Shown here: piece by piece, positions 3,852 through 21,301 of the stretch
Layout of the letters: each line of letters begins with the position of its first letter
Position numbering within the stretch: the stretch's first letter is position 1
Assembly: GCA_022560615.1 (NCBI GenBank)
Contig: JADFSR010000003.1
Coordinates: forward strand, 124,001 to 188,000
Direction: 5' to 3'
From: Gemmatimonadota bacterium
GTDB lineage: Bacteria; Gemmatimonadota; Gemmatimonadetes; Longimicrobiales; Gaopeijiaceae
Length of the DNA stretch: 64,000 nt
The notes under the pieces: model-generated
Database searches by the model: none
Seen by the model: the letters and a program-made list of their open reading frames with translations, nothing else
Told to the model about the DNA's origin: nothing
Program-made: the position numbers and the translations under genes

Positions 3852-3924
3852 GCTGGCGTAGCTCAACTGGTAGAGCAGCTGATTTGTAATCAGCAGGTTG
3901 GGGGTTCGAGTCCCTTCGCCAGCT
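3852..3924 (+). tRNA. tRNA-Thr (anticodon TGT)
   Basis: The sequence folds into a full cloverleaf. The acceptor stem GCTGGCG pairs with CGCCAGC, the anticodon arm GCTGA/TCAGC has the loop TTTGTAA, and the T-loop is TTCGAGT. Anticodon TGT reads ACA. No CCA is encoded. It is first in a Thr-Tyr-Gly-Thr-tuf series matching E. coli thrU. Confidence 0.96.
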
Positions 3925-3941
3925 TGCCTCGATTCACAGCC

Positions 3942-3957
3942 CTCTCGGGGCCGAGAG
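3942..3957 (+). other. Small hairpin between tRNA-Thr and tRNA-Tyr
   Basis: CTCTCG and CGAGAG form a perfect 6-bp stem around a GGGC tetraloop, 17 bases after the first tRNA. It could be a processing signal or stabilise the tRNA precursor end. There is no T-tract, so termination is unlikely. Confidence 0.4.
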
Positions 3958-3985
3958 ACCCATGCGATCAGGCGCTTTTCGGCCC

Positions 3986-4020
3986 TTTACGCCTCCAGCG
4001 ACCCGAGTTACCTTTTTATG
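3986..4020 (+). promoter_or_regulatory. Possible promoter between the tRNA genes
   Basis: TTTACG is followed after 17 bp by TACCTTTTTATG. The second element resembles the -10 of the rpsL promoter in this window (TACCTTTATG) and the TAnnTTTG -7 element known from Bacteroidetes. It would serve tRNA-Tyr, tRNA-Gly, tRNA-Thr and tuf1. A terminator-like hairpin starts only 15 bases after the candidate -10, which weakens the call. Confidence 0.33.
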
Positions 4021-4034
4021 CTCGTTCGCAAAAG

Positions 4035-4064
4035 GCCGCCTCAGTCGCCTGGGGGCGGCTCTTT
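4035..4064 (+). terminator. Terminator-like hairpin between tRNA-Thr and tRNA-Tyr
   Basis: GCCGCC (4035-4040) and GGCGGC (4054-4059) form a GC-only stem with a 13-base loop, followed by TCTTTT. It could partly terminate transcription after the first tRNA, or act as an attenuator before tRNA-Tyr. The T-tract is short. Confidence 0.5.
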
Positions 4065-4133
4065 TCCGCATTTAGGAGGTGGTGCGGAGAGGTCGGCCGG
4101 GCGCCCCGATGGGACGGTTCGGGTGCGAGAGCC

Positions 4134-4215
4134 GGTGGGGTACCGAAGCGGTCAAACGGGGCAGACTGTAAATCTGCTGGCATAGCCTTCGGAGGTTCGA
4201 ATCCTCCCCCCACCA
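4134..4215 (+). tRNA. tRNA-Tyr (anticodon GTA)
   Basis: This is a class II tRNA with a long variable arm. The acceptor stem GGTGGGG pairs with CCCCACC, the anticodon arm GCAGA/TCTGC has loop CTGTAAA with anticodon GTA, and the variable arm TGGCATAGCCTTC precedes GGAGG-TTCGAAT-CCTCC. CCA is not encoded. It corresponds to tyrU in the E. coli tufB transcript. Confidence 0.96.
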
Positions 4216-4254
4216 CTTCGTGTCTCGCTGACAGAAGAGGATAGGGGAGGCGCT

Positions 4255-4328
4255 GCGGGAGTAGCTCAGTTGGCTAGAGCATCAGCCTTCCAAGCTGAGG
4301 GTCGCGGGTTCGAGTCCCGTCTCCCGCT
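4255..4328 (+). tRNA. tRNA-Gly (anticodon TCC)
   Basis: A full cloverleaf is present: acceptor GCGGGAG with CTCCCGC, anticodon arm TCAGC/GCTGA with loop CTTCCAA (anticodon TCC, reads GGA and GGG), and T-arm GCGGG-TTCGAGT-CCCGT. CCA is not encoded. It corresponds to glyT in the E. coli order. Confidence 0.96.
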
Positions 4329-4363
4329 TGTAGCGAAGCAGCTGACTAAAAGAATCGATGCGC

Positions 4364-4435
<72 letters not shown>

Positions 4436-17924: not shown

Positions 17925-17987
17925 GGGCCCCTCGGGCCCACATGTTTTGAGGGTGAGGGGCGCTTTCCTTCTCGGGGGGCGCCCCTC
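17925..17987 (+). other. Hairpins after rpoC
   Basis: GGGCCC-CTC-GGGCCC (17925-17939) and GAGGGGCGC (17955-17963) paired with GCGCCCCTC (17979-17987) lie between rpoC and the rpsL promoter. They may protect the 3' end of the rpoBC mRNA or slow the polymerase. No T-tract follows, so intrinsic termination is not supported. Confidence 0.4.
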
Positions 17988-17994
17988 GACTCCG

Positions 17995-18023
17995 TTGACA
18001 CCCTCTGGACCCTTCTCTACCTT
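17995..18023 (+). promoter_or_regulatory. Promoter of the rpsL (str) operon
   Basis: A perfect -35 TTGACA (17995-18000) is followed by a 17-bp spacer and TACCTT (18018-18023), continuing TATG. The -10 is weak by E. coli standards but fits TAnnTTT of the Bacteroidetes -7 element. Transcription would start near 18030, giving a leader of about 87 nt with a terminator-like hairpin before the rpsL ATG. Confidence 0.6.
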
Positions 18024-18076
18024 TATGTGCTGTAGTCGGACCGGCGATTCGCAACGACAGCGAAGAGCCAAATACG

Positions 18077-18100
18077 ACGCGCCGAGAGGCGCGTTTTTTT
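18077..18100 (+). terminator. Terminator/attenuator in the rpsL leader
   Basis: ACGCGCC (18077-18083) and GGCGCGT (18088-18094) form a perfect stem with GAGA loop, followed by six more T bases. This is a textbook intrinsic terminator only 16 bp before the rpsL ATG. It lies downstream of the predicted promoter. It may end rpoBC transcripts and also attenuate the str operon. The RBS-like CAGAGGGC comes right after it. Confidence 0.75.
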
Positions 18101-18116
18101 CACTATCAGAGGGCAA

Positions 18117-18488
18117 ATGCCGACGATCAACCAGCTCGTGAGGAAGGGCCGAAAGGCTGTTCAGAAGAAGAACAAAACCCCGGCTCTTCAGCGGAGTCCG
18201 CAGAAGCGCGGTGTCTGCACGCGCGTGTATACGACGACTCCGAAGAAGCCGAACTCGGCGCTTCGGAAAGTTGCTCGTGTGCGGCTCACGAACGGGTACG
18301 AAGTCACCGCATACATCGGGGGTGAGGGACACAACCTCCAGGAGCACTCGATCGTGCTCATCCGTGGCGGCCGAGTGAAAGACCTTCCGGGTGTTCGGTA
18401 CCACATCATCCGTGGTACGCTGGATACTTCAGGGGTCAGCGATCGTCGCCAGGGACGCTCCAAGTACGGGGCCAAGCGGCCCAAATAA
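18117..18488 (+). CDS. rpsL: 30S ribosomal protein S12
   Basis: This decoding-centre protein has 123 residues. The [16 protein letters not shown] motif and the [11 protein letters not shown] motif contain the Lys positions (43 and 88 in E. coli numbering) where changes give streptomycin resistance; both are Lys here, the sensitive form. It is the first gene of the str operon, preceded by a promoter and a terminator-like hairpin. rpsG starts 12 bp after the stop. Confidence 0.97.
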
Positions 18489-18500
18489 GGCAAGAAATAG

Positions 18501-18971
18501 ATGAGCCGTCGTTCCCGGGCTGAAAAGAGGGAGACTCCTCCCGATCCGCGCTTCGAGTCGCGTACCGTCACCAAGTTCATCAACAACTTGATGCGGGACG
18601 GTAAGAAGTCGGTCGCCGAGAAGATCTTCTACGACGCGGTCGACATTCTCGAGCAGCGAACCGGTCAGTCGGGGGTGCAGCTGTTCGAGCAGGCGCTGAC
18701 CAACACCAAACCGACGCTCGAGGTGAAGAGCCGCCGCGTCGGTGGCGCGACGTATCAGGTGCCGATCGAGGTTCGCCCGGAGCGCCGCGCGGCTTTGGCG
18801 ATGCGATGGTTGATTTCATACGCGCGTCGCCGTTCGGAAAAGAGTATGTCCGAGCGGCTCGCCGCAGAGCTTCTCGCCGCGAGCCGCGGCGAGGGCGCGA
18901 CGGTCAAGAAGAAGGACGACACGCACCGGATGGCGGAAGCCAACAAGGCGTTCGCGCACTACCGCTGGTAA
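18501..18971 (+). CDS. rpsG: 30S ribosomal protein S7
   Basis: This 156-residue protein organises the 3' major domain of 16S rRNA and touches the E-site tRNA. The N-terminal [10 protein letters not shown], the [14 protein letters not shown] motif and the [16 protein letters not shown] hairpin are typical. S7 is the usual repressor of the str operon, with its target between rpsL and rpsG in E. coli. Here that gap is only 12 bp, so the classical target cannot be present in the same form. Confidence 0.97.
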
Positions 18972-19033
18972 CCAGCGTCTAGAGGGACTGGTAGGACCGC
19001 GCCGCCCGCATGGGGTGCAAAGACAATTTGGGA

Positions 19034-19140
19034 CGCGATGGCCCCCTTTGTTTGGGGAACCGGGGCCCTCTCCGATCGAAGGAGCGCGGACGACTGTGGG
19101 CCCTGCGGGGCCGCAGCGGCAGGAGCCGCGCTCCTTTTTT
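19034..19140 (+). terminator. Terminator-like structure in the fusA leader
   Basis: GGAGCGCGG (19081-19089) pairs with CCGCGCTCC (19126-19134), followed by TTTTTT (19135-19140). The 36-base loop is itself GC-rich and can fold. A competing upstream pair exists: GGCCCC (19039-19044) with GGGGCC (19061-19066). It lies 58 bp before the fusA ATG, inside the rpsG-fusA gap. An attenuator controlling fusA-tuf2 relative to rpsL-rpsG is a reasonable reading. No promoter was recognised here. Confidence 0.6.
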
Positions 19141-19198: not shown

Positions 19199-21301
19199 AT
19201 GCCCAGAAAGACTCCACTACCGCAGCTGCGCAACATCGGCATCATGGCGCACATCGATGCCGGGAAGACCACGACCACCGAGCGCATCCTGTTCTACACG
19301 GGACGGGTGCACCGTGTGGGCGAGGTACACGACGGTGCTGCCACCATGGACTGGATGGAGCAGGAGCAGGAGCGAGGGATCACGATTACGTCCGCTGCCA
19401 CCACAGCTCATTGGCTCCGCAACGGTACCGATTACCGAATTAACATCATCGACACACCCGGCCACGTGGATTTCACGGCCGAGGTCGAACGGTCGCTGCG
19501 CGTTCTGGACGGTGCGGTGGCCGTTTTTTGTGCGGTGGGTGGTGTGGAGCCGCAATCCGAGACGGTTTGGCGCCAGGCGGACCGCTACACGGTCCCGCGC
19601 ATCGCGTTCGTCAATAAGATGGACCGTGTCGGCGCTGACTTCATAAACGTCGTCGGCATGATGCGCGACCGGCTGGGTGCGAACGCGCATCCGGTCCAGT
19701 ATCCGCTGGGCGAGGGTGAGCTCTTCACAGGGGTCGTCGACATCGTCGAGCGGAAGGCGATCATCTACGAAGGCGAGATGGGCTCGAAGTTCAGCGACGG
19801 TCCCGTCCCCGACGGCCTCGTCGACACGGTCGAGGAGTTGCGTCACACGCTGCTCGAGGCCGCGATAGAGCACGACGACGATCTCATCGAGAAGTACCTC
19901 GGGGGAGAAGAGCTCAGCAACGATGAGCTCCGTCACGCGATCCGTGCGGCGACCATCAAGGGTGTCATCTTCCCCGTCTTTTGCGGCTCTGCCTTCAAGA
20001 ACAAAGGCGTGCAGGCGCTCCTGGACGGGGTGATCGACTACCTGCCGTCGCCGATCGACGTGCCCGCGATTCAGGGGCACCTCCCACACCACGACGAGAC
20101 CTTCGAGACCCGCGAGGCGAGCGACGACGCCCCCTTCGCGGCTCTTGCGTTCAAGATCGCGACGGACCCCTACGTCGGTAAGCTGACGTTCTTCCGGGTC
20201 TACTCCGGCTCACTACCCGCCGGTAGCTACGTGTACAACGCCAGCAGGGATCAGCGAGAGCGCGTGGGCCGGATCCTGCAGATGCACGCCAACAAGCGTG
20301 AGGAGCGAGACGAGGTGTTCGCGGGCGACATCGCCGCAGCGATCGGCCTCAAGCACGTGAAGACCGGCGACACTCTGTGCGTCGAGACCCACCCGATCAT
20401 CCTGGAGGCGATGAGCTTCCCGGAGCCGGTCATCGCGGTCGCGATCGAGCCGAAGACGAGGGCCGACCAGGACAAGCTCACGAACGGGCTGGTCAAGCTC
20501 ACCGACGAGGACCCGACGTTCCGCGTCTTCACCGATCCGGAGACGAACCAGACGATCATCTCGGGCATGGGTGAGCTCCACCTCGAGATCATCGTCGATC
20601 GCCTCAAGCGCGAGTTCGGCGTCGAGGCCAACATCGGTCGCCCGCAGGTCGCGTACCGCGAGACGATCCGCAAGCGAGCCGAGAAAGTGGAAGGCAGGTT
20701 CGTCCGCCAGACGGGTGGGCGCGGTCAGTACGGCCACGTGGTCATCAACATCGAACCGGGCACACCCGGTTCGGGCTTCATCTTCGAGGACAAGATCCAC
20801 GGTGGCTCGATCCCTCGAGAGTACATCGGCTCCGTCGAAGCGGGGATCCGTGACGCGCTCGACTCGGGCGTGCTCGCCAGCTACCCGGTCATCGACGTGA
20901 AGGTCGAGCTGATCGACGGGTCGTACCACGATGTCGACTCGAGTGAAATGGCGTTCAAGGTCGCCGGCTCGATGGCACTCAAGGCGGGCATCAAGAAGGC
21001 CAAGCCGATCCTGCTCGAGCCGATCATGGACGTCGAGGTCGTGACTCCGGCCGACTACATGGGAGATATCATCGGCGACCTATCGGCCCGTCGGGGCAAG
21101 GTCGGCGGTATGACCGAGCGTGCGGGCGCGCGCGTCATCGGCGCTTCGGTGCCGCTCGGTGAGATGTTCGGCTATTCGACCACGCTTCGCTCGATGAGCC
21201 AGGGGCGGGCCGTGTATACGATGCAGTTCGCGCACTACGACGAGGTTCCGAAGTCGAAAGCCGAGGAAATCATGGCGACCGACGGCGGCGGAGCCGACTG
21301 A
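19199..21301 (+). CDS. fusA: Elongation factor G
   Basis: EF-G drives translocation and, with RRF, ribosome recycling. The 700-residue protein has the P-loop AHIDAGKT at 17-24, the DTPGHVDF G3 motif, NKMD for guanine specificity, and domains II to V. The GGRGQYGHV segment of domain IV is intact. The ATG at 19199 gives the canonical start. The gene is separated from rpsG by a 227-bp structured region, larger than usual in a str operon, and tuf2 follows after 44 bp. Confidence 0.97.

Follow-up and report, generated by a model that had tools for sequence, protein, structure and literature searches.

The rpsL-rpsG genes of this lineage appear to be controlled by attenuation in their leader, where a promoter is followed by a leader hairpin (P1) and by an intrinsic terminator directly before rpsL. 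We regard attenuation as the best reading of these three elements and give it a probability of roughly 0.6, judged from sequence comparison. This control layout has already been predicted in other bacteria and is here traced in an undescribed lineage.

In the window, the whole stretch of 64,000 nucleotides analysed here, TTGACA (17995-18000) and TACCTT (18018-18023) lie upstream of rpsL on the forward strand with a spacer of 17 nt, exactly as the original prediction described the promoter. A generic sigma-70 scan of the window did not report it, because TACCTT agrees with TATAAT at only three of six positions. The promoter does fit what its recurrence marks as the genome's own consensus, TTGACA-N16-18-TAnnTT, which has ten copies in the 4.5-Mb genome vs one for a reversed control pattern. 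Most of the other nine copies stand directly 5' of a plausible gene start, and the genes behind such copies, named by eye from their translations, include purA, nuoA, truA and a tolQ-like gene. The purA leader (L226), in which ATCTGTC lies soon after the -10 and precedes a G+C-rich hairpin and GTTCTTCG, may be another attenuator-like leader.

We took the regions upstream of rpsL from 137 relatives, mostly of the same family, with others from the order, class and phylum. The strict promoter occurs 5' of rpsL in 124 of the 135 with enough sequence, compared with 0.7 expected from shuffling, and 101 of these 124 have a 17-nt spacer; as the relatives are not independent, such conservation counts are not P-values, and many of the relatives are draft assemblies. 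In 89% of relatives, G occupies the sixth position past the -10, and an initial block (GCTCTnGTC or GTCTGTC) follows the promoter in 100/124, where 3.7 are expected. The block reads GCTGTAGTCGG in the window (18029-18039; GCTCTnGTCGG or GTCTGTC in relatives), and together with the conserved G it places the probable transcription start at about G18029. Relatives whose leaders are very short and contain no terminator retain the block, which therefore belongs with the promoter or the early transcript and not with the attenuator. Of ten relatives tested, three contained the strict composite of promoter and block, and only at rpsL; a looser form occurs in the window's genome at rpsL, at prs (with an L25-like gene behind it) and at rpsA. 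The combination may mark translation-related promoters in this lineage. The promoters of rpsA (L221) and prs (L220; L25-like gene) share an initial GGGCTGTC/GGGCTCTC block with rpsL (promoter at locus base 1501).

We also considered whether the block is a boxA and rejected this, as GCTCTnGTC is unlike the GTTTGAAAATC-type motif of rrn leaders in two relatives (L236, L235). The rrn leaders of L235 and L236 carry boxA-like GTTTGAAAATC/GTTTGACAATC, and in L236 TTGACA-17-TATCGT lies upstream. A 16S rRNA model gave no match in the window's assembly (G000) or in G005, G022, G025, G256, G275 and G283. Most of these assemblies are single-contig, and the missing matches perhaps reflect masked or withheld sequence.

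The terminator (18076-18100, forward strand) is seen in the sequence, in the generic scan's list, in the predicted fold and in relatives. Its perfectly paired 8-bp stem, GACGCGCC/GGCGCGTT (18076-18083/18088-18095), encloses a GAGA loop and runs into seven Ts (18094-18100); 16 bases later rpsL (S12; 18117-18488) begins with its ATG at 18117. The perfect stem and the T-run ending 16 bp before rpsL had been anticipated correctly. When a criterion of at least six stem pairs, at least four of them G-C, followed by a T-run was applied mechanically to leaders, a terminator was found in 60 of 93 family members (4.0 expected), in 4/5 and 7/10 members of two sister families of the order (0.4 and 0.9 expected) and in 10/24 genomes from other parts of the class and phylum (1.1 expected). 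The rpsL leaders of other phyla contained one in 18 of 80 cases against 3.4 expected, in agreement with published predictions. About a third of the family genomes have no leader terminator by this criterion. Three leaders that failed it (L014, L019, L130) retain an imperfect stem and T-run, while in genus g5 the leader terminator is altogether absent from all members inspected (L005, L114, L116, L117). It is likewise missing from many relatives with short leaders in other parts of the class.

The T-run ends about 8 nt upstream of the Shine-Dalgarno-like AGAGGG of rpsL (18108-18113). This proximity, together with the strong rpsL expression that fast growth demands, would suit a hairpin that acts as a stability or translation element of the 5'-UTR and terminates nothing in vivo. 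We think this improbable, as a T-run directly after the stem is retained in most members although their stems differ. Nor is there support for a 5' end of the transcript that pairs with the ribosome-binding site: this end (GCUCUnGUCG) pairs with the Shine-Dalgarno or with rpsL codons in some minimum-energy folds, but a test against mismatched genomes spoke against this and the candidate was rejected.

The leader hairpin could in principle also belong to the genes upstream. In the window, rpoC adjoins the rpsL leader directly, and the hairpin might serve only to end rpoBC transcripts that run past rpoC, the outcome against which the original prediction was to be judged. However, the order in the window is rpoC, its own 3' hairpin, the rpsL promoter and then the leader terminator, so that the terminator sits 3' of the promoter and rpoC has a separate hairpin 5' of it. 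This upstream hairpin, GAGGGGCGC...GCGCCCCTC (17955-17987, forward strand), identified from the sequence and from comparison of relatives, is the probable end of rpoBC transcripts; a stem of at least eight pairs lies between rpoC and the rpsL promoter in 18 of 29 relatives, with 5.9 expected. Furthermore, promoter and terminator are kept where the upstream gene is on the opposite strand, whether it looks like a 2-isopropylmalate synthase (L013, L027; the L027 terminator has a weaker T-run and misses the strict criterion) or encodes a sensor-type protein (L021, L026), and also where rpoC is some 0.8-1.2 kb distant (L002, L010, L132). Since the leader terminator is retained with divergent or distant upstream genes, it is not merely that of rpoBC, and we consider such an exclusive role highly improbable. 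Promoter and leader are conserved together in relatives, and comparison across genomes establishes both as elements independent of rpoC.

Between promoter and terminator, the window leader folds into P1 followed by the terminator (z = -3.0). P1 (18043-18069, forward strand; GGC..TTCGC-AACGACA-GCGAA..GCC) shows compensatory changes at three pairs across eight close relatives, in which 94.7% of its cells are paired; for the whole leader structure the figure is 94.2%, and it falls to 53% or less once the partners are slid. The loop reads AAYGACR in most of these eight relatives. P1 differs in other subclades, and therefore no common ligand site is visible. A single leader structure for the whole family was rejected, as the alignments of subclades B and G have no shared P1. 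Complementarity of leaders to the 5' arm of their own terminator was not above that of mismatched genomes, in the family or in its subclades, and thus gives no sign of an antiterminator. No ATG, GTG or TTG occurs within 18029-18095, which makes a translated leader peptide before the terminator unlikely. Among the cis-regulatory families of Rfam 15, the rpsL leader gives sub-threshold hits only, as does a second element before fusA described below; only four tRNAs exceed the threshold in the window. A Thr-Tyr-Gly-Thr tRNA cluster lies at 3852-4435, upstream of the ribosomal-protein region.

These observations bear on whether the leader senses anything. An unregulated partial terminator could simply lower rpsL-rpsG transcription to a fixed fraction for the sake of stoichiometry, which would agree with the absence of an antiterminator and of a common ligand site, and with the variation of both P1 and the terminator loop between subclades. 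But a fixed attenuator would need neither the covariation in P1 nor the leader layout that has been kept, and the terminator lies immediately next to the ribosome-binding site, an arrangement seen in regulated leaders. We therefore consider a fixed terminator unlikely, while leaving it appreciable weight, and favour regulated attenuation.

Only 12 bp (18489-18500) separate rpsL from rpsG (S7; 18501-18971, forward strand), and because of this short gap an S7 site of the E. coli type is absent, as had been claimed; the gap holds no S7 operator structure and has no Rfam match. The missing site does not show that control has moved into the rpsL leader, and a simple move is contradicted by the second structured element in the rpsG-fusA gap, described below. 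That further step of the original prediction is not borne out, with no ligand, antiterminator or S7-like site found in the leader, whereas attenuation as such is well supported by conservation. In E. coli, translational repression acts through the S7 site between rpsL and rpsG (PMC10931766). This site concerns the same operon and presumably the same purpose as the attenuator described here, but control in this lineage would be exerted at transcription.

We propose the following model. The rpsL-rpsG genes would be transcribed from their own housekeeping-type promoter, starting at about G18029. RNA polymerase would first make a leader of about 70 nt that folds into P1, and the intrinsic terminator would then form just before the rpsL ribosome-binding site. 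Some transcripts would end at about 18095-18100, and the fraction reading through would set the expression of S12 and S7. Both termination at the leader hairpin in vivo and its regulation are what we infer from the conserved layout; as to the regulator, we can offer a guess. Most likely, a free ribosomal protein encoded in the operon would exert feedback, or a Nus-type factor would intervene, with P1 and the nascent terminator as the target. The mode of action would resemble that of L4 at the E. coli S10 leader and would not be a classical antiterminator switch. The S10 leader is subject to L4/NusA attenuation and has two hairpins, the second of them a terminator with a T-run, and no antiterminator. 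It thus shares its layout with the rpsL leader, a likeness of arrangement and not of compared sequence, and it belongs to a different operon.

Two other kinds of rpsL leader invite comparison. The 'Cand. Pelagibacter ubique' rpsL motif, which we take to be rpsL_ricks in Rfam, resembles the leader in position but forms a three-stem junction, and the window has no Rfam match to it. Like the RNAs described here, this motif is a structured RNA found 5' of rpsL and sometimes of fusA (PMC2704228); it is said to fail terminator criteria (PMC2965389). Closer are the rpsL-leader attenuators predicted in other phyla by Naville and Gautheret in 2010, following Merino and Yanofsky, who had earlier predicted such attenuators in 24 species (both PMC2965389). 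These leaders, as here, have an intrinsic terminator directly before rpsL; they come from other lineages and have no sequence or structure common to different phyla (PMC2965389), whereas here the promoter is conserved together with the terminator. Naville and Gautheret drew a potential antiterminator for each element with a derived structure, and we found none. The leader thus has the terminator and the upstream promoter of its own, but not the antiterminator pairing. We treat the latter as typical of rpsL-leaders rather than defining, because the authors themselves call theirs 'potential', and regard the present leader as a variant that would work like one.

A more elaborate conserved structured terminator, outside the account of the original prediction, is located between rpsG and fusA (EF-G; 19199-21301, forward strand). 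The element (19028-19140, forward strand) was recognised by pattern and alignment and by a covariance model, and is more novel than the rpsL leader; the literature searched contained no mention of it. It parallels the second candidate, a fusA-leader, of streptococci (PMC2965389). Of 51 family loci, with the window's own locus counted twice, 33 have a terminator in the rpsG-fusA gap, where 4.0 are expected. The motif consists of the nearly invariant ACGCGAYGGCC and GGCCCUCUCCG with a variable loop between them, and a two-stage terminator hairpin comes next; in the window the first hairpin, ACGCGAUGGCC...GGCCCUCUCCG, occupies 19033-19074 and the two-stage hairpin with its T-run 19080-19135, both on the forward strand. 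The fold of each of the 20 aligned members contains such a hairpin, interrupted by an internal loop. The pairs of the first hairpin never vary, and it is supported because its loops include UUCG and GGAA.

The covariance model, whose training set includes the window, scores the window's element at 98 bits. It detects a single copy in each of 26 of 298 genomes of the phylum, all 26 between rpsG and fusA. The exact pattern occurs once each in 27/117 family genomes, with one hit overall for a reversed control. L018, L027 and L014 have weak matches at the corresponding position, which suggest diverged relatives. The motif was not found in viral contigs, and mimicry of 16S or partial 23S rRNA was rejected, as the best matches were at chance level. 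In our model, this separate terminator would set the output of EF-G and EF-Tu independently. It is a tentative thought, possible but on the doubtful side, that the str operon is split by two independent RNA switches: the promoter-proximal S12/S7 attenuator, and a new single-copy class of rpsG-fusA RNA whose invariant internal-loop hairpin binds a translation component, be it S7, S12 or EF-G, and separately determines the output of EF-G and EF-Tu.

Taken together, feedback in ribosomal-protein operons is known in detail for a few model bacteria only, and the rpsL-leader has so far been a prediction with no common structure. Here, a single lineage provides more than 100 genomes in which the promoter and the position of the attenuator are conserved, along with a near-invariant partner element before fusA. 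A search for the regulator of the str operon thus has two concrete RNAs to start from, the rpsL leader and the fusA element.
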